Below, piece after piece: positions 15,003 to 27,772 of a stretch of 64,000 bases of DNA. A program made the translations under genes and the position numbers. The DNA lies in assembly GCF_023897015.1 (NCBI RefSeq), contig NZ_JAMHFY010000019.1:1-64000 (forward strand), written 5' to 3'. The notes beneath the pieces were generated by a model, which was not told the origin of the DNA, ran no database searches, and was given only the letters and a program-made list of their open reading frames with translations. The stretch's first letter is position 1. Every line of letters starts with the position of its first letter. Source of the stretch: Desulfosporosinus nitroreducens (lineage in GTDB: Bacteria; Bacillota; Desulfitobacteriia; Desulfitobacteriales; Desulfitobacteriaceae).

Positions 15003-15605
15003 TTAAGCGGTTTCGCCATTCATTTTCTTCTTAAAAATGAAAATTGCAATAACCATTATGACAACTGCATATCCAATTACCCACCAAAGGTGCGGTAAAA
15101 TCGATAAATAGTCTCCGGAAATGGCAGCTCTGCCCGCGTCAACAGCATGAGCAAATGGAAGTGCATATGCAATCTCTTTGAACCATCCACCAATCAGATT
15201 TAAATCAAACCATGTGCCACTCAACCATGCACTGAGATTAGTCAATAGTGCTCCAATGATGCTGCTCACCTGCTTTTCATTAAATATACTGCCTGCTAAC
15301 AGTCCAATTCCAATAAATAGTACAGCTGTTGGCATAAGCACAATAAGAGACAGCAAAACATTGGCGTTTACAGGCAACCCTAAGAAGAATGCGGCAATAA
15401 AGCTTATGGCAATTTGAAGAATCGCCATGGGTAGTAGTGGAAGTGTGTATCCCATGATGTAATCAGAGGCAGAAAGTGGAGTCGTGAACAATCGCATCAA
15501 AAATGAGGTTCCTCTATCTATAGCTATTAACATTCCAGAGAATAGCGAGATAAAAGAAAGACCGAAAACTGCTATTCCCGGAATAAGTTTATCAATGACA
15601 AACAA
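15003..15605 (-). pseudogene. ABC-2 type transport permease, N-terminally truncated
   Basis: About 200 residues with five hydrophobic segments of the ABC-2/DrrB class, including FTTPLSASDYIMGYT and the late GTWFDLNLIGGWF-ALPFAHAVDA segment, which are typical of the permease C-terminal two thirds. The first 50 or so residues, with the first membrane helix, are lacking. Upstream in the same frame a stop is met soon, while hydrophobic codons (IGVLWLILIS) appear in another frame behind a good AAAGGAG site, which points to a deletion or frameshift near 15620-15640. No ATP-binding subunit gene is next to it. It is most likely a dying gene, though a start at TTG 15605 cannot be ruled out. Confidence 0.65.
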
Positions 15606-16034
15606 TTCAACTTCAATATTGGCTTGAATGGCAGATAGATATAAGAATTAACCATAATACACCAATGGTTCAGCTCCTTTATAATTCGCAGCAAATTATT
15701 TTGCTGCAGATCGTCTGTATTTATGCGTCACATTGGACGATAGTTTCGTGTAAATTGTTTTTTACAAGGTCTAATTGAATTGTGCGGGAGTCATTCCGCT
15801 CCCTAGCCGCCGAGCGAGATAGCGCAAAGCGCCAGGAAGGCAATTCTTAGAATGGGTGGACAATAGAAGTTGAGAGCGAAATACTCAAGGCACTAAGAAT
15901 TAACAAAAATAAATTCACCTGAGTTTTAAGGCCAGAGAAGGTAAGTCTATGCTTGAAAGTAGCAAATGACCCCCTCTGGCCTCATTTATTAAAAGCACTT
16001 CTCTGGAATCTGACTGATAAATGAGGAAATTTTC
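15606..16034. other. Intergenic region with several hairpins, no gene
   Basis: GCAGCAAA-TTA-TTTTGCTGC (15689-15708), a GGGAG/CTCCC hairpin near 15785-15803, and the arms AATTCTTAG (about 15842-15850) and CTAAGAATT (15892-15900) can each fold. The stretch at 15780-15840 is GC-richer than its flanks and may be a scar of lost DNA. I see no coding frame worth calling. Confidence 0.45.
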
Positions 16035-16096
16035 TTGACAGCAATTGTTTACAGATGTAATATACTTATAAATTACATCTGTAAACAATTGCTTGT
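16035..16096 (+). promoter_or_regulatory. blaI promoter with BlaI/MecI-type operator palindrome
   Basis: TTGACA (16035-16040) and TAATAT (16058-16063) are 17 bases apart, a near-ideal promoter. Overlaid on it is a very long inverted repeat: GCAATTGTTTACAGATGTAAT (16041-16061) is mirrored at 16072-16092. Each arm holds the BlaI/MecI core TACAnnTGTA (TACAGATGTA and TACATCTGTA). A dimer on each arm would cover the -10 box and the transcript start, so the repressor made by the next gene very probably controls its own operon. Confidence 0.88.
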
Positions 16097-16110
16097 CAGG
16101 AGGCTTAAAC

Positions 16111-16488
16111 TTGATAGAAACACCCAATATATCAGATGCGGAATGGGAAGTTATGAAGATTTGTTGGCTGAAATCGGCTCCATGTACTGCAAATGAGATC
16201 GTTAAGGCTTTAGAACAATCGACAGATTGGAAACCAAATACAATCAAGACTTTAATCGGGAGGTTGGTTAAAAAAGGGGCACTAGGTTACAAAGAAGAGG
16301 GTAGGGTTTATCTTTACAAGCCCTTAGTGACCGAAGAAGAGTGTGTTAAGGTCGAGAGTAAGTCCTTTCTTACTCGAGTATTTGGTGGAGCGCTTAAGCC
16401 TATGCTCGTTACGTTTCTTAAAGAAGAAAAGCTCTCTCAGGATGAAATTGAAGAACTTAAACAGCTCCTTGAAGAAAGGAAAGAGTGA
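16111..16488 (+). CDS. BlaI/MecI-family transcriptional repressor
   Basis: A 125-residue winged-helix repressor. The N-terminal half reads ISDAEWEVMKICW-SAPCTANEIV and then KPNTIKTLIGRLVKKGALGY, the usual recognition helix region of BlaI. The C-terminal half, with LSQDEIEELKQLLEE, is the dimer part that is cut by the BlaR1-type protease in known systems. The start at TTG 16111 is set by CAGGAGG at about 16097-16103. The gene overlaps the next, a BlaR1-type protein, by 4 bases (GTGA), so the pair is coupled. Its operator is the palindrome immediately upstream. Confidence 0.92.
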   Translation: MIETPNISDAEWEVMKICWLKSAPCTANEIVKALEQSTDWKPNTIKTLIGRLVKKGALGYKEEGRVYLYKPLVTEEECVKVESKSFLTRVFGGALKPMLVTFLKEEKLSQDEIEELKQLLEERKE

Positions 16489-18389
16489 AAATGCTTACGC
16501 TTTTACAGGCAAATCATCTAAACTTTTTTACTTGGGTTTTGATTACATCTGCCAAAGCAAGCATCTTCATCATTTTTCTCCTTGGAGTGAAATTTGTACT
16601 TAAATATAAAATGGGAGCACGCTTTCAGTATATGTTGTGGTCAGTTTTGATCATAGGTTTAGTGTTGCCATGGACACCTAATACCCCCATAAGTGTGTAT
16701 AATTATCTCGACGCTATTCACATGCAGCAAATGATAGCATCGATTGTTGACCGAATCACACTATCATCCTCCACTAACCTTGCAAACCTCCAACTTGATT
16801 TGGACCAAACTGCTGTTGTGGACAGCAATTCCAGCAAGGTTGTTGTGAGCACTGAAACTCAGCGCCCGGAAGGTCGAAATGCAAATGAATGGACCGCCTT
16901 CCCATTCGTTTATAAACTAATGTCAATCATCTGGTTAGCAGGGATCTTGATATTGACCGCTCTCACCGTCATTGTAAACAAACGGTTTTCTAAAAATATC
17001 GGACAAGCTTTGGTGAAGGACCAAGGTTTGCTTTCGGAGTTCAATAACCTCAGATTGGAATTGAAGGTAAAAACGGAAATCCCGCTGTTTAAGTCAAGGT
17101 ACGTAAACAGTCCATCATTATTAGGTTTAATCCACCCCAGATTGTTATTACCCATTGGGATTGAGCAAACATTTAGCTTGCAACAGATAAACCATATATT
17201 TTTACATGAGTTAATACATTTTAAACGTAAGGACATCTGGATAAATTGGTTAACCCAGGTATTGATTATCAGTCACTGGTTTAATCCATTAATTTGGTAC
17301 GCTTTCAACAGGATGCGGGAAGATCAGGAGATATCGTGTGATGCTTTAGCGACAGCTCGAATTGATACTAAGCAATCCAAAGACTATGCCTATACACTTG
17401 TCAAGCTGGCAGAGACATACTCTACAACAGCTCCACGAATGACGAGCCTGGCAAGTTTGTGTGGCTCAAACTCACAAATCAAGAAGAGACTAATTATGCT
17501 TAGCAATAGAAAGCATAAACAGGCTTCGGCTAAATGGTCATTGATTGGTGTTATAGTGATAGGATTAATAGCCTTTGCGACTTTCAGCAGTGCTCAAGCG
17601 GTTGCAAACCCAGCTTTAGAAGAAGGCAATACTGCCAATTTATCTCATGGGATCAGTGGGGGACAGGCCGTTGGACCCACAACTGGGATTGTCGATACAA
17701 GTTTGGGAATCACAGTGGAGGATATCACAGGTCCAAATTTCAAAGGCAAAGTGATGTTGATCAAGGACCCTACCCGAGTAAAATTAGCCGTTAATAAAGA
17801 TATAGGAGTTATGGGAGAAAGGGTCAGTGAGCTTGTCAAAGGTAGGGAAGGCATTGCCGGAATTAATGCCGGAGGGTTTTATGACCCGGATGGTAAAGGA
17901 AACGGTGCTTTCCCAGACGGGTTAACCGTGCAGGATGGAAAACTGGTTTACAATAATGTGGGAGAAAAAGAAGTCAATATTGTTGGATTTGATAACCAGG
18001 GAAAAATGGTCATAGGTAATATGACAGCAAATAAATTGGAAGCGCAACACATACGTGAAGCTGTTACTTTTGCGCCTAATCTTATTGTGGAGGGCAAATC
18101 TGTAATTCTAGGGGACGGGGGCTGGGGAATTGCCCCTCGAACCGGCATAGGCCAAATGGCAGACGGGACCGTCATTTTCGTTGTTATTGACGGGCGCCAA
18201 CCTAATTGGAGTATCGGGGCGACCTTAAGTGACCTTATGAAGGTCTTTGAGGACTATCATGCCGTGAATGCAGTCAATCTCGATGGCGGTTCTTCCTCAG
18301 AAATGGTCTATCAAGGTAAAGTCATCAATAAGCTTTGGAATATTTTCGGGGAACGCTATGTTCCCACAGCTTTTGTGGTTACCCCATGA
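16485..18389 (+). CDS. BlaR1-type M56 metalloprotease fused to a phosphodiester glycosidase (NAGPA) domain
   Basis: A 634-residue membrane protein. The N-terminal part (1-370) is the M56/BlaR1 module: membrane segments near 15-38, 47-63, 142-163 and 352-371, with the zinc motif HELIH at 241-245 and the downstream EDQEISCDA segment that supplies the next ligand. Instead of the penicillin-binding sensor of BlaR1, residues about 405-634 form a phosphodiester glycosidase domain (PF09992, NAGPA type), with GINAGGFYDPDG, RTGIGQ, VVIDGRQ and NLDGGSSSEM. It probably sits outside the membrane and may bind or cut sugar-phosphate polymers of the wall, with the M56 part relaying the signal to BlaI. The next gene encodes the same domain alone. 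Confidence 0.88.
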   Translation: MKMLTLLQANHLNFFTWVLITSAKASIFIIFLLGVKFVLKYKMGARFQYMLWSVLIIGLVLPWTPNTPISVYNYLDAIHMQQMIASIVDRITLSSSTNLANLQLDLDQTAVVDSNSSKVVVSTETQRPEGRNANEWTAFPFVYKLMSIIWLAGILILTALTVIVNKRFSKNIGQALVKDQGLLSEFNNLRLELKVKTEIPLFKSRYVNSPSLLGLIHPRLLLPIGIEQTFSLQQINHIFLHELIHFKRKDIWINWLTQVLIISHWFNPLIWYAFNRMREDQEISCDALATARIDTKQSKDYAYTLVKLAETYSTTAPRMTSLASLCGSNSQIKKRLIMLSNRKHKQASAKWSLIGVIVIGLIAFATFSSAQAVANPALEEGNTANLSHGISGGQAVGPTTGIVDTSLGITVEDITGPNFKGKVMLIKDPTRVKLAVNKDIGVMGERVSELVKGREGIAGINAGGFYDPDGKGNGAFPDGLTVQDGKLVYNNVGEKEVNIVGFDNQGKMVIGNMTANKLEAQHIREAVTFAPNLIVEGKSVILGDGGWGIAPRTGIGQMADGTVIFVVIDGRQPNWSIGATLSDLMKVFEDYHAVNAVNLDGGSSSEMVYQGKVINKLWNIFGERYVPTAFVVTP

Positions 18390-18431
18390 GAGCTAGATGT
18401 TCATTTCTAACAGGAAATTAATGGAGGTCAC

Positions 18432-19394
18432 ATGAGGAAAATACGAAGAATACGGCCAAGAATGATTATTGCCTTTCTTATATTCAATGTAGTTTTTGAT
18501 GTTGTCCTAGCGCCCTTTATCATTTTCTGAGGGCCATTCGAAGCATCGAAAACTTTAGCAGTAGGTTCCGTTCTCTCTTCCAGGCATCCGCAGGTTGTTG
18601 AGGCATTTCTCTCGGAGCAAGAAATTAGTGAAATTGTGAACAAATATAATAACACCGACTCAGCATCGAATGGCCCAATCCGGCGTACTGTATCAGAGGC
18701 CTCTGCAGGCATCACGCTTGAAGATATTAAGGGTAAGGCATTTAAAGGCAAAGTAATGCTCATCAAGGATCCGAAAGGGATAAAAGTTGCTGTGACAAAG
18801 GAATTGGAGGTCACAGGTGAACGAGTAAGTGATTTTGTCAAAGACACAGGAGCTATTGCCGGCATAAATGGTGGAGGGTTTTATGACCCTAATGGTGCAG
18901 GAAACGGAGCTTTTCCTGACGGATTAACCGTGCATAATGGAGAAATCGTACATAATAATGTAGGCAACAAGAGTACTGACATAGTAGCTTTTGATAAGGA
19001 AGGTAACCTGATTGTTGGACAAATAACAGCTGATGACGTTAAGAAGAAAAACATACAGGAAGCGGTATCGTTCTTGCCAACCTTAATCCAGGACGGAAAA
19101 CGAGGTGAATTTCAAGACTCAAGGTGGGGAGTTGCACCGCGAACGGCAATCGGACAGAAAGCAGATGGCACGATTATTCTTGTGGTAATTGATGGTCGAC
19201 AAGCAACCTGGAGTTGGGGGGCAAAAATGAGCGACCTCTATAATCTCTTCAAAGAGTATGATGCGGTTAATGCTGCCAATCTGGATGGCGGTTCTTCTAC
19301 AGAACTCTACTATAACGGAAAAGTGATTAATAAACTTTGGAATTGGGCTGGTGAACGCTACCTGCCGACGGCTATTGTAGTCATGCCAGAATAA
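18432..19394 (+). pseudogene. Membrane-anchored phosphodiester glycosidase (NAGPA) with an in-frame TGA
   Basis: A good GGAGG site precedes ATG 18432, and codons 1-32 encode a basic start and a hydrophobic anchor. Codon 33 (18528-18530) is TGA, and the frame stays open after it to 19394: GPFEASKT, then FLSEQEISEIV, then a complete NAGPA domain with GINGGGFYDPNG, RTAIGQ, VVIDGRQ and NLDGGSSTEL. The same layout (anchor, FLSE/FSEAEIQKI segment, domain) is intact in the paralogue at 26726. Either a nonsense change has split the anchor from the domain, leaving a soluble product from GTG 18636, or the TGA is read through. I favour the first. Confidence 0.75.
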
Positions 19395-19469
19395 CGTCAC
19401 AAATGAATTGATTCTGTAGCTACCTCTTAAAGTCATATCATAATCACCGTTATATAAGGAGAAGTTACG

Positions 19470-20720
19470 ATGAAGAAGAAGCTGCGTATCTTTTTCGTTT
19501 GGATATTAGTTTCACTCATTTTTCAATTAGGAGGGCACTCGCTTTTGAACTACCAAGTTCAAAAAGTTATGGGACTGACAGTGGTAGATAGTGAATCACC
19601 GATCATATCCCAGCTCAAAGCAATTATCCCTGGTTCTGACCTTACAAATATTCAGGTTTCTTACGCCAAGGATTATTTGGCTTATATGGAAAAGGGTACA
19701 CTTAAAGTCTTCAACTTAAAAAAGGAGAAAATCGTTTTTGAAAAGAAATCGCCGTCTTCTACGGATAAAACTTTGGGAGTTTTAACGTATCAATGGTTGC
19801 CTGATCGAAATATTTTACTCTATTTTTATGCCAAAAAAAACCCTAATGAGGTGACAACCGTTAAAGTGTACCCCTCTAAGACTATCCCTTCAACTCCTTC
19901 AATTGAACCGGAAACCGAAGATCCAAACCAAGCGAAAATTGTATCCAAAGAAGTTCCGGCAGAACCGAGGTATGAAAAACGCTATGGAAGTCCACAACTT
20001 ACTGAACTTTATTCGCTAGAACTCCCGAATAGTGATGAAGATATCGCTCCTGATGATCGTTTAAATTCCTTTGATCCACCGAGTGGGAGTGAAAAGATTT
20101 CCGCTGGCGGGAAACTAGAAAAATTTGTTGTCGCAACCTCTACTAATTTAATGTATTTAACTGTCACAAATGGTTCAACACAACAACTTATCAAAATAGA
20201 CGTTAACAAAAAGGTAAGTACGCTAAGCGAAGCCAGAGAATTTATCGAGAATATGGCGATCTCTGATCGCTTCGCAACACTTTATATTGACAGTAAAGTG
20301 GGGGCCGTCCAGCAAGTTGTTGCCTTAAGTGATGGAAAGCGTCAAGTTATCTCTAAAAAGAATGATGACAGAATCTTAGGCGTCAGAAAAGGAAAAGTGT
20401 ATATCGGAGAAGTAGTAAATAATGAACTTGTAAAGATTAAAACCACTGCTGACCTAAAAATGATGAAGGAGAACCCTTCACTGAAAACCGAATGGGAAGG
20501 TTCAATCCCCTTTAATGAAAACGTGCGTGTGCTCATTGGAGTTAAAGGGCAAATAGTCGTCTATGATAATCAAACTGCCTATATCGTTATAGACAGTCAC
20601 CTCGAAGAGGCCAAATTGCAGGGAGATGAAAATTACGTATCTGTCGATGGCTCAGTGCTTATCCAACTTACTGAAGCAGAAATATCTACCCATGTAGAGT
20701 TGAAACCTCTTAAACCATAA
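19470..20720 (+). CDS. Secreted or membrane-anchored protein of unknown function
   Basis: A 416-residue protein with an N-terminal signal anchor (about residues 5-25). The body has repeated short beta-type stretches such as VSYAKDYLAYMEKGTLKVF and LTYQWLPDRNILLYFYAK, which look like blades of a propeller in which values are read out. A proline- and acid-rich linker (about 130-180) precedes the second half. No catalytic motif is evident. GGAGAAG stands before ATG 19470. It follows the NAGPA gene by 75 bases in the same direction and probably belongs to the same envelope operon. Confidence 0.55.
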   Translation: MKKKLRIFFVWILVSLIFQLGGHSLLNYQVQKVMGLTVVDSESPIISQLKAIIPGSDLTNIQVSYAKDYLAYMEKGTLKVFNLKKEKIVFEKKSPSSTDKTLGVLTYQWLPDRNILLYFYAKKNPNEVTTVKVYPSKTIPSTPSIEPETEDPNQAKIVSKEVPAEPRYEKRYGSPQLTELYSLELPNSDEDIAPDDRLNSFDPPSGSEKISAGGKLEKFVVATSTNLMYLTVTNGSTQQLIKIDVNKKVSTLSEAREFIENMAISDRFATLYIDSKVGAVQQVVALSDGKRQVISKKNDDRILGVRKGKVYIGEVVNNELVKIKTTADLKMMKENPSLKTEWEGSIPFNENVRVLIGVKGQIVVYDNQTAYIVIDSHLEEAKLQGDENYVSVDGSVLIQLTEAEISTHVELKPLKP

Positions 20721-21106
20721 TCTGTTTTACAAATGATGGCAATACCTCAACTTCATCTAAAATGTATTAAACCTATTTAATTATCTAAGTCCTGCGGGTG
20801 GCATGTTAATCTTAAATAATTAATAGATATTTTAGATCTAAAAATATAAATTTTGTCATTAGGCATTAAAGTCTTATTTAAAAATGTCTAATTAAGTAAT
20901 TTGATTAGAGATTATATTCAAATTCCAGCATAATTAGTATTATCTCTTATCAAATTTTTTTATTCTGAGAAAATAGGTTCGATATTCGTATAAATGGGAC
21001 ACTTTTGTTATTAAAAAGTACGTCAATACGATGCTCATTACGACATACTTCACTTCTTCAAGATGAGATAATTATCCAGATACAAATTGAAGGAGTGTAG
21101 CATCAG
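20721..21106. other. AT-rich intergenic region, no gene
   Basis: This holds a 14-base perfect palindrome TTTTAGATCTAAAA at 20830-20843 and several near-repeats of AGATAATA/TTATCTC type. It presumably carries the promoter of the CWB2-VanW gene, but no clean -35/-10 pair stands out. A ribosome binding site GAAGGAG lies just before 21107. Confidence 0.4.
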
Positions 21107-22864
21107 ATGAACAAAAAGATAATGATCTTAATCTTAATCTTTTTCCTATGTAGTTGTATTTTTGTAGGAACTCCAGCTTTTGCAGCTGCTAATAACCTAA
21201 GTCCATCTACTGACTCGCCACAGCCTATTAGCACTAATAGGCTGTACGGACAAACAAGATTTGAGACCGCCAAGGTTATCGCTGAGTATTATTGTATCGG
21301 AAAGGTTAAGAATGCAGTCCTTTCAACAGGAAACGATTTTGCAGATGCTTTATCGGCAAGTGTCCTAGCCCATGAAAAGGAAGCGCCTATACTATTAGTG
21401 GATTCATCGGTTGATAACTCTAAGGATGCTTTTGATTATGTCACTCAACATCTTGATTCAACTGGAACAGTTTATATCATTGGCGGTACTGGAATAATAA
21501 GCACGGAATTCGAGACTAAACTTAATGATCTTGGAATCAAAAATGTTATTCGAATTGCTGGTATGGACAGATATGATACATCTTATAAGATAGCCAGTTC
21601 ACTCCATGATACAGCTGTATCCACAGTAGTGATATCCTCCGGAGAACAATTTTCCGATGCTTTAAGTATCTCCAGTTTTGCAGCTAATAAAGGCTGGCCG
21701 ATTTTGTTATCTCCCCAGGATGCCTTTCCTCAAGAAATGAAGAACTTTTTACTGGAAAAGAAGCCTTCCAAAGTATACATAACTGGGGGAGAAGGAGTAA
21801 TCTCTGATAATATAAAATCCGAAATTATCAGTTTGTTACCTCAGGCTGGTGTCGAACGGTTAACGGGACAATCCCAGTTTGATACGAATGTGATCATTGC
21901 AGAAACCTTTGCACCTAATCCTTCAACCATATATCTAGCCACAGGTTACAGTTTTGCAGATGCTTTGGCAGGCAGTGTTGTGGCAGCCAAAACAGGAGAT
22001 CCTATAATATTTATAGACCCCTCAGTACCAACATTGCCAAACTCAACAGCCAGTTACTTTGCTAAATTTTATGCAAATATTTTCAATCCAAGTTTAGTTT
22101 CCTTTGGGGGAAACAGAGTGGTAACGGATGAGATAATTAAAAGTTCAAGAGACTTGATATGGGGAACAGCGAAAGAAACTAGCATTTATTCTATAGCGGA
22201 TATTACAGCAATGGTTACTCAAAATGAAGAGTACTCCTTACCTGCAACTGTTCAGGCTAAGCTTTACAACAGCGATGCTATTGAGGTGCCTGTTCAGTGG
22301 AATCCGAAGTTCGGCGATACAAACAAAATTGGGTCAAGTGTTTATGAGGGAGCCGTAGAAGAATATGGTCAAATGATTAAACTTACTCTTACTGTCAAAG
22401 AAGCGGTGTCAGTCCCAGTCGCTCAATACTCTACTCACTTTGATTCAAACCAGGTCAATCGTACCAAGAACATTCGCCTTGCTGTAAAGGCTCTTGATGG
22501 AAAACTATTGGCACCTGGAGAACGTTTCTCCTTCAACGAGGTTGTGGGAGAACGAACTGCTGAAGCAGGTTATAAAGAGGCAATGGTCATAGTAGGAGAC
22601 GCCTACACCCCAGGACTCGGGGGCGGAATCTGTCAAGTTTCTTCCACTCTTTACAATGCAGTCACTATTGCTCATTTAGAAATTACTGAAAGGCATCGTC
22701 ATTCCCTGCCCGTAGATTATGTACCTGCGGGACAGGATGCAACCGTGAGCTTTCCCATCCTTGATTTTAGATTTAGAAACAACACAGACGCTTATATCCT
22801 AATCCGCAGTTTCGTAGAAGGGGATACCTTAACCTTTCAGCTTTATAAAAAGGCTGAGAAATAA
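21107..22864 (+). CDS. Secreted cell-wall protein: CWB2 repeats, Ig-like domain and VanW domain
   Basis: A 585-residue exported protein. A signal peptide ends at about residue 27 (TPAFAAA). Three CWB2 (PF04122) repeats follow to about 345; each has the R-(Y/T)-(E/D)T start, an ADALS-type segment (FADALSASVLA, FSDALSISS, FADALAGSVVA) and a GG(T/E/N)G/R end. CWB2 repeats hold proteins to anionic wall polymers. About 360-430 looks like a bacterial Ig-like domain. Residues about 440-580 are a VanW domain with GERFSFNEVVGERT and GGGICQVSSTLYNA. The function of VanW is not settled. The link between wall-polymer binding and VanW fits the neighbouring wall-related genes. Confidence 0.9.
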   Translation: MNKKIMILILIFFLCSCIFVGTPAFAAANNLSPSTDSPQPISTNRLYGQTRFETAKVIAEYYCIGKVKNAVLSTGNDFADALSASVLAHEKEAPILLVDSSVDNSKDAFDYVTQHLDSTGTVYIIGGTGIISTEFETKLNDLGIKNVIRIAGMDRYDTSYKIASSLHDTAVSTVVISSGEQFSDALSISSFAANKGWPILLSPQDAFPQEMKNFLLEKKPSKVYITGGEGVISDNIKSEIISLLPQAGVERLTGQSQFDTNVIIAETFAPNPSTIYLATGYSFADALAGSVVAAKTGDPIIFIDPSVPTLPNSTASYFAKFYANIFNPSLVSFGGNRVVTDEIIKSSRDLIWGTAKETSIYSIADITAMVTQNEEYSLPATVQAKLYNSDAIEVPVQWNPKFGDTNKIGSSVYEGAVEEYGQMIKLTLTVKEAVSVPVAQYSTHFDSNQVNRTKNIRLAVKALDGKLLAPGERFSFNEVVGERTAEAGYKEAMVIVGDAYTPGLGGGICQVSSTLYNAVTIAHLEITERHRHSLPVDYVPAGQDATVSFPILDFRFRNNTDAYILIRSFVEGDTLTFQLYKKAEK

Positions 22865-26725: not shown

Positions 26726-27772
26726 ATGAGTAATACTGGAATTCCTAAATCTTCAGACCCGATATGGCAGCAGAGACTTGATAGGAAACCTGCAGGGATC
26801 TACTATTACAGCAGGAAGAAAAAACGGTTAAGGCAGTTATTAACGGGGATGCTCAGTCTCTTTATAATCTTTGGCTTGTGCTTTTTAGGATTTTTGTATG
26901 CACCTATCCAACCTTTTGTGGTGCTTCGTGAATTATGGGTGACTAGCGCTATGACGACATTAAATCATCAATACCTAGCCACGTACTTATTTAGCGAGGC
27001 GGAGATTCAAAAGATAATGGATAACAACAAGGTTACAGATCTTGGTAACTCAGATCCTTCAAATATTGAAACTCCGGGAACTGGCAACAATACTGGAATG
27101 GAACTCATTGATATTAGCCAAAAGGGTTTTAAAGGTTATCTGCTCAAAATTAAGGATCCTGGACGTGTCAAGGTGGCGGCAACGAGTCATCTTGGCAAGA
27201 TGGGAGCAAAAGCTGAAGATATCGCCAAAGAGAATGGAGCAATTGCAGTCATTAATGGAGGTGCATTTGAAGATCCAGAGGGTAAAGGCAACGGCGGTCA
27301 ACCTTTGGGCATCCTCATCTCGGACGGTCATATTCTCCATAAAGACCCAGTCTCATCATTCAATATCATTGGGTTAAATCGTGACGATGTTTTGGTCCTT
27401 GGTCATTATACTCTGAATCAAATCAAACAGATGGATATAAGGGATGCCGTCACGTTCAGCCCCTTCCTTGTCGTCGATGGTAAACCATCTATTACCCATG
27501 GAGACGGGGGATGGGGTATTGCCCCCAGGACAGCGATAGGACAGACGAAGGAGGGCAGTATTTTAATGCTGGTGATAGATGGCCGTCAGATTGGGTCCCT
27601 GGGTGCTACCCTTAAAGATGTCCAGGATATTATGCTTGAAAACGGTGCCTATAATGTTGCTAATCTTGATGGCGGATCCTCAACGGTTCTTTACTACAAT
27701 GGCAAGATAGTTAATCACCCCTCGAGTCAGTATGGTGAACGCCATGCGCCGTCCTTTTTTATTGTGAAATAA
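26726..27772 (+). CDS. Membrane-anchored phosphodiester glycosidase (NAGPA), intact paralogue
   Basis: A 348-residue protein with a basic N-terminus, one membrane anchor (about residues 38-62), the linker segment NHQYLATYLFSEAEIQKIM, and a C-terminal NAGPA domain (about 120-348) with AVINGGAFEDPEG, RTAIGQ, LVIDGRQ and NLDGGSSTVL. It is the intact version of the layout seen in the interrupted gene at 18432. Members of this family hydrolyse or bind GlcNAc-1-phosphodiester-type bonds in animals and wall or capsule polymers in bacteria. GGAGATGGAGG gives the start. A terminator follows at 27812, so it is a single-gene unit. Confidence 0.85.
   Translation: MSNTGIPKSSDPIWQQRLDRKPAGIYYYSRKKKRLRQLLTGMLSLFIIFGLCFLGFLYAPIQPFVVLRELWVTSAMTTLNHQYLATYLFSEAEIQKIMDNNKVTDLGNSDPSNIETPGTGNNTGMELIDISQKGFKGYLLKIKDPGRVKVAATSHLGKMGAKAEDIAKENGAIAVINGGAFEDPEGKGNGGQPLGILISDGHILHKDPVSSFNIIGLNRDDVLVLGHYTLNQIKQMDIRDAVTFSPFLVVDGKPSITHGDGGWGIAPRTAIGQTKEGSILMLVIDGRQIGSLGATLKDVQDIMLENGAYNVANLDGGSSTVLYYNGKIVNHPSSQYGERHAPSFFIVK

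Follow-up and report, generated by a model that had tools for sequence, protein, structure and literature searches.

A BlaI/M56-type signalling locus of Desulfosporosinus whose receptor carries a NAGPA domain in place of a penicillin sensor

In the BlaR1/BlaI and MecR1/MecI systems of Staphylococcus, a BlaI-type repressor gene stands beside a four-helix M56 receptor with the zinc motifs HEXXH and EXXXD, and BlaR1 cuts itself at S283-F284 (PMC9834060). The sensor of BlaR1 resembles a beta-lactamase with slowed turnover (PMC7593790), and its site is filled by the extracellular loop EL1 (residues 56-96), which is displaced by the beta-lactam (PMC9834060). Here we examine a locus in a Desulfosporosinus draft genome of 5.46 Mb (genome G000; the window is the whole stretch of 64,000 nucleotides at the start of its contig 10), where a BlaI-type repressor gene is followed by a gene that fuses a BlaR1-type M56 protease with a NAGPA domain, by a second NAGPA gene (NAGPA2) and by a fourth gene encoding 416 amino acids. 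Like BlaR1 and MecR1, the fused receptor has both zinc motifs, a predicted extracellular C-terminal domain and a putative sensor homologous to an enzyme family, and a serine followed by a bulky residue aligns with their autocleavage site; unlike them, it ends in a NAGPA domain where they have a domain resembling class D beta-lactamases, the next gene of the operon encodes NAGPA, and its extracellular loop has about 78 residues against the 41 (56-96) of BlaR1. With the NAGPA/DUF2233 phosphodiester glycosidases it shares fold and conserved motifs, but unlike in those enzymes the predicted glycosidase domain is fused to a membrane protease and lies behind a repressor gene. We consider it reasonably likely that this is an autoregulated proteolytic receptor of the BlaI/BlaR1 type that senses sugar-1-phosphodiesters and derepresses an enzyme homologous to its own sensor.

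The repressor half of the pair is readily recognized. The first gene (16111..16488, plus strand, TTG start) encodes 125 residues that match PF03965 at 3.9e-38 and the MecI structure 1sd6 at 2.3e-28, and its Phe102 aligns with the near-invariant Phe just after the BlaI/MecI cleavage site. It overlaps the receptor gene (16485..18389, plus strand, GTG start, 634 residues) by the four bases GTGA at 16485-16488, which confirms the arrangement described in an earlier note made from the letters of the window. Residues 19-339 of the receptor match the M56 family (PF05569) at 1.4e-54, far over the Pfam cut-off, and the protease motif HELIH named in that note lies at residues 241-245 (17205..17219, plus strand), with a second zinc motif, EISCD, at residues 282-286. 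In an alignment of the 11 intact fusions of the window's type, H241, E242, L243, H245, E282 and D286 are invariant in all rows, and S324-L325, which aligns with the BlaR1 autocleavage pair S283-F284, is nearly so at both positions.

A structure model of the receptor built from the same 11 rows has an overall confidence (pLDDT) of 62.7 and matches BlaR1 over residues 14-329 with a Z-score of 19.2; such scores come from a second look at Foldseek matches, and absence from that list carries no meaning. The model places long helices at residues 2-39, 45-60, 139-171 and 348-367, and the loop of about 78 residues between the second and third (about 61-138) is mostly unstructured and of low model confidence. 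In a hydropathy scan with a fixed cut-off the window protein shows three hydrophobic regions, the first as two overlapping stretches, and 7 of 14 other fusions show four. The four membrane segments claimed earlier are thus a fair prediction, on account of the hydropathy regions together with the four modeled helices.

The C-terminal half of the receptor (residues ~407-634, encoded at 17703..18386, plus strand) is of the NAGPA type. Residues 457-633 match PF09992 at 1.5e-44, with 152.6 bits against a gathering score of 25, and the model, whose confidence here is mostly 70-91 with four weaker stretches, superimposes over residues 407-634 on the solved NAGPA chain 6pku_B (Z 24.4, root mean square deviation 2.5 over 219 residues); the fold match extends to the NAGPA/DUF2233 entries 6pki, 6pku, 6u11 and 3ohg at Z 22-24. 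This is the sole C-terminal Pfam match, no penicillin-binding domain was found in the receptor by Pfam, and the NCBIfam model blaR1_generic aligns only at its positions 8-331 of 585, scoring 173.6 against a cut-off of 400. The receptor therefore has the tested features of BlaI/M56 signalling and is not a BlaR1 beta-lactam receptor, because the defining penicillin sensor is absent, and an ordinary BlaR1 with a beta-lactam sensor is ruled out on the Pfam and NCBIfam scans. The central proposal of the earlier note, a BlaI/BlaR1-type pair in which a NAGPA domain replaces the penicillin sensor and a NAGPA gene comes next in the operon, is supported by the domains and the gene order.

The system could still report general wall damage or beta-lactams, with the NAGPA domain merely anchoring the receptor to wall polymers. 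The BlaR1- and MecI-like character of protease half and repressor would fit this, as would the D,D-carboxypeptidase gene and the VanW/CWB2 gene near by; it is nonetheless quite improbable, given the missing penicillin-binding domain, the low blaR1_generic score and the absence of any beta-lactamase family match among the unit's other genes in the Pfam and NCBIfam scans. Two other described systems share parts of this architecture. The M56 receptor homologue of Mycobacterium tuberculosis likewise lacks a penicillin sensor, but the passage that treats it describes no replacement sensor domain (PMC9834060). The BlaI_1845 operon of Clostridium thermocellum is likewise a small operon of BlaI and BlaR1 with two hypothetical genes; unlike us, its authors read it as a beta-lactam response, and the section on the operon makes no mention of NAGPA (PMC8457756). 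Among the matches listed from the open-licence literature, none describes an M56-NAGPA fusion.

If the receptor senses sugar-1-phosphodiesters, its mode of action can be sketched by analogy with BlaR1. At rest, BlaI would sit on two boxes in the promoter and repress its own gene together with those for the receptor, NAGPA2 and the 416-residue protein. Outside the membrane, the NAGPA domain would bind a sugar-1-phosphodiester of the cell envelope, and binding would displace the long extracellular loop (~61-138), as a beta-lactam displaces EL1, whereupon the M56 domain would cut BlaI before Phe102. The operon would then be expressed, and the membrane-anchored NAGPA enzyme and its 416-residue partner would act on the polymer that was sensed. 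From the displacement of the loop through the cutting of BlaI to induction and the enzyme activity of NAGPA2, these steps are our inference. A loop lying in the NAGPA site would be physically reasonable, given that some solved animal NAGPA entries are described in their titles as auto-inhibited by a pro-peptide.

The ligand class is suggested by the domain itself. Animal NAGPA cuts GlcNAc-1-phosphodiesters, namely the GlcNAc-1-P-6-mannose bond, and bacterial wall polymers are joined to peptidoglycan through a bond of the GlcNAc-1-phosphodiester type. Among possible ligands the wall-polymer linkage unit, GlcNAc-1-P-6-MurNAc, would come first, since its bond is similar to the one cut by the animal enzyme, and teichoic-acid-like or lipid-linked GlcNAc-1-phosphate compounds, as the earlier note proposed, are plausible ligands. 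Such polymers could be made by this organism, as the window's genome encodes one homologue of TagA/WecG and two of LCP proteins.

To judge from their sequences, sensor and NAGPA genes are kin, and the sensor domain was probably recruited from a phosphodiester glycosidase of the NAGPA type. The window's receptor domain shares 73% of its residues with a standalone NAGPA protein encoded on contig 22 of the same genome and 60% with NAGPA2, and in genome G029 the receptor domain and the NAGPA gene of its own locus share 92.2% DNA identity over 746 bp, which points to a recent copy or conversion. We compared the window domain with 40 other NAGPA domains, including the NAGPA piece of a frame-broken receptor in genome G012. 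At 24 conserved positions the window domain carries the residue common to at least 34 of the 40, and at N461, R552, D569, R571, N598, D600 and S604 its residue is that of 39 or 40 of them; the loss of ligand-binding residues that would have spoken against the earlier note's reading is not seen at these positions.

The intact state of the window domain raises the alternative that it is a working membrane-tethered phosphodiester glycosidase, with the M56 part governing its activity or its release, and that the true signal arises elsewhere, in the membrane, the loop or a partner protein. The window domain may indeed be catalytically active, since it has the usual residue at all 24 positions, and its 73% identity to the standalone protein points the same way. 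We nevertheless regard this alternative as unlikely. Three of 15 fused domains (L078, L080 and L092) are changed at positions kept in 39 of the 40 others: L078 and L080 carry D569N, N598L and S604L plus other changes (e.g. R624Q and the loss of several glycines, prolines or arginines), and L092 carries D600N and S604M. The 12 other fused domains, the window's included, retain the usual residues at these positions. Such losses are as expected if the receptor needs binding more than turnover. A separate NAGPA gene, moreover, follows in the unit, and M56 cores of the same group bear unrelated C-terminal parts in other genomes, which fits interchangeable sensors.

A sensing role of the NAGPA domain is also consistent with the history of the M56 part. 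In a tree of 30 M56 parts (domains shorter than 220 residues for M56 and 170 for NAGPA trees, and duplicates, were dropped), the fusions fall on three lineages, namely the window type, a second formed by G008, G029 and G030, and G031, and M56 proteins with other C-terminal parts lie between them. A tree made to hold all fusions as a single clade is worse by 77.6 log units (p-AU 7e-34), and one that unites the window type with the second lineage, a pair named only after the tree had been seen, is worse by 56 (p-AU 1.7e-6). A single origin of all fusions is rejected on this tree, which has several long branches and on which losses could stand for gains; the window-type fusions themselves form one clade with support of 76/38, which is not strong. 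M56 cores 59-65% identical to the window's occur in five genomes with other C-termini, such as DUF4830 (L043); L027 has a weak C-terminal match to DUF4829, below the cut-off, and of two more distant M56 proteins, L094 has DUF4367 and L095 shows no Pfam domain besides M56. These other pairs of the family share the repressor and protease cassette with the window's locus and, where scanned, the operator type, and differ from it in their uncharacterised C-terminal parts, which hold no NAGPA. The G031 fusion (L092) contains DUF4825 and NAGPA together. A small, apparently secreted protein is encoded after the second-type receptor in L078, L079 and L080; the one in L078 matches bacterial SH3_3, and those in L079 and L080 look like it.

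The fusion recurs within the family. Among 29 genomes of the genus we found at least 12 intact full-length fusions, 11 of the window type and one divergent (G008, 33% identity), along with one truncated where its contig stops (G026) and one frame-broken (G012); the 45 genomes of the family hold at least 15 intact fusions, those 12 and the ones of G029, G030 and G031. The architecture is thus not confined to the window's genome, and with the fusion open in 15 genomes an assembly artefact is ruled out. A fragment of the window fusion (L001) was dropped from the list of fusions. The 10 intact window-type relatives are 59-82% identical to the window receptor, with invariant motifs, and two Desulfosporosinus proteins, L044 and L045, are 81% and 79% identical to it; they apparently represent the same loci as G014 and G011 and were counted once. 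The order blaI, receptor, NAGPA2 and 416-residue gene is identical at all 12 window-type loci with enough flank, that is, the window, the 10 intact relatives and frame-broken G012. Outer settings of the unit are of at least eight different kinds, being alike among G004, G007 and G012 and between G001 and G017 and different elsewhere. In G009 a second BlaI/M56 pair (L081, 2192-4776), with an interrupted M56 frame, lies directly before the fusion unit, and in L082, L086 and L090 a protein of 811-820 residues is encoded directly upstream of it, with NAGPA in the scanned L086 copy.

Downstream of the receptor, NAGPA2 (18432..19394, plus strand) is a predicted membrane-anchored phosphodiester glycosidase, and the fourth gene (19470..20720, plus strand) encodes an N-anchored, mostly beta protein of 416 residues with no Pfam match at 0.001 and no NCBIfam match at 0.01, the model of which has low confidence (pLDDT 44, beta) and was too poor for a fold search. 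A second gene for the same domain thus does follow the receptor, as was noted earlier, but in this assembly its frame, opening at ATG 18432, is broken by a TGA at 18528-18530 (codon 33), just after the membrane anchor, and the 252-residue open reading frame that resumes at GTG 18636 lacks the anchor. NAGPA2 is open at this position in relatives, where the copies are intact, so the stop is either an assembly error or a genuine loss of this output in the strain. The 416-residue gene directly follows NAGPA2 at 12 of 12 window-type loci. It also follows the NAGPA gene at six of nine places that have a related NAGPA gene with no receptor beside it (the M56 locus L101 is not counted), two of them in receptor-bearing genomes (L100 in G014, and L103, which is the contig 22 gene of the window's own genome with a paralogue of the 416-residue gene). 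Since the association holds even where the receptor is missing, NAGPA and the 416-residue protein look like an effector pair to which the receptor was added. All six terminator-like sites in 15600-21200 lie on the minus strand, and it is therefore plausible that the four genes form one transcript.

The predicted control region fits a BlaI-regulated operon. A sigma-A-like promoter, TTGACA-17-TAATAT (16035..16063, plus strand, 10 of 12 matches), is the best plus-strand site in 15600-21200; with 11 promoter-like sites there against 15.1 in shuffles, their number is not above shuffles, and it is therefore conservation that carries the argument, the pattern TTGAC...TA...T being kept at all 12 window-type loci. 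Two exact TTACANNTGTAA boxes, neither assigned to a strand, lie over this promoter: box 1, TTACAGATGTAA, occupies the spacer and the -10 (16049..16060), box 2, TTACATCTGTAA, the start region (16073..16084), and together they make one larger inverted repeat. BlaI and MecI operators have a TACANNTGTA-type consensus and are of the TACA-TGTA type, which these boxes share. At every one of the 12 window-type loci, counting the window itself, the promoter spacer is overlapped by a box that departs from TTACANNTGTAA at no more than one position, and a second with at most two mismatches follows at 11; at the twelfth, L089, the scan ended before the second box, and L017, which represents the same place, shows TTACGCGTGTAA there. 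Both boxes also occur in G026 (L025), and the divergent G008 locus has two CTACA-TGTAG boxes at the same position. Seven of the nine receptor-less NAGPA places were scanned and yielded one two-mismatch box and nothing better (L099 and L104 were outside the scan, and the start of L097 is doubtful). What makes the operator credible is that the two exact boxes are arranged as a single inverted repeat across the promoter and that this arrangement is kept at all 12 loci. The promoter palindrome of the earlier note is accordingly present, overlapping TTGACA-17-TAATAT, and BlaI control of the promoter is supported by the conserved operator, with repressor binding and derepression as predictions.

In addition to the complete residue set of the window's sensor domain, several observations weigh against the proposed receptor. 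By count, the boxes are not beyond chance, as three with at most one mismatch are seen against 3.2 expected; GTTTACAGATGTAA at up to two mismatches is found twice against 0.59 expected, a number reached by 12 of 100 shuffles. Genome-wide, TTTACANNTGTAA has six matches against 20 for the reversed control pattern. Two of the six are this promoter, and of the other four, three lie inside open reading frames and one between them, so that this pattern gives no support to a wider regulon. No exact TACANNTGTA box precedes blaI in L079, L080 or L092, and L080 and L092 are without a box even at two mismatches, in a scan that did not include L079. Boxes also occur at all six scanned BlaI/M56 pairs without NAGPA; as would be expected, it is blaI, and not NAGPA, that the operator accompanies.

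The fusion is, moreover, narrowly distributed. The earlier note proposed a search for M56 joined to PF09992 across the Firmicutes, and so wide a spread was not borne out: a 398-genome phylum sample was searched with three queries at E-value limits of 1e-100, 1e-40 and 1e-50, and among the candidates scored, no more than three for each genome, every full-span fusion belonged to a member of the window's family (G000, G001, G002 and G031 in one of the searches). A class search of 82 genomes (E 1e-85) gave no fusion outside the family among the matches listed; there a divergent G031-like fusion shows its NAGPA part only, but the NAGPA matches listed from beyond the family sit in frames no longer than 376 residues. 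Viral contigs gave a NAGPA relative on two of them, with the fusion confirmed in 0 of 148 stretches by alignment scan, and none of 40 matching plasmid records covers 80% of the receptor in one place.

The interruption of NAGPA2 in the source strain and the frame break of the G012 receptor also count here, for they imply that some strains can do without the output or are losing it. Together with the narrow spread, they could be taken to mean that this is a decaying or chance fusion without present function. That seems very unlikely to us in view of the 10 intact relatives at 59-82% identity with invariant motifs, the conserved operator and the occurrence of NAGPA on three M56 lineages.

It is chiefly as receptors for penicillin that BlaR1 and MecR1 are known, and a sensor-swapped relative on three lineages suggests a more general device for sensing the envelope, by which a cell would listen to its own wall polymers instead of antibiotics. 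Tentatively, BlaI/M56 can be pictured as a general plug-in chassis whose outer domain has been repeatedly swapped for a copy of whichever envelope enzyme acts on the substrate to be watched, some of the resulting receptors being dead enzymes; the NAGPA version would then be a receptor for wall-polymer sugar-1-phosphodiesters that controls the enzyme for that bond. The fusions, with intact, freshly copied and lesioned domains, offer a natural series for the step from enzyme to receptor, and the little-studied bacterial NAGPA domain gains a candidate role in wall-polymer turnover.

The surroundings of the locus hold further relatives of its parts. Another NAGPA gene lies within the window at 26726-27772 (348 residues), and one more on the same contig beyond it (G000:C10:80409-80939), inside an open frame of 958 residues. 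Eight strong M56 matches occur in G000, on contigs 8, 10, 19, 48 and 95, that on contig 95 apparently split, and there is an extra M56 fragment on contig 35. Upstream of the unit, 15003-15605 may be a remnant of an ABC-2 type permease, as the domain is present in the open reading frame without its beginning (profile 51-209 of 211). Near the operon, the protein encoded at 21107-22864 combines Big_4 and VanW domains with three CWB2 stretches.

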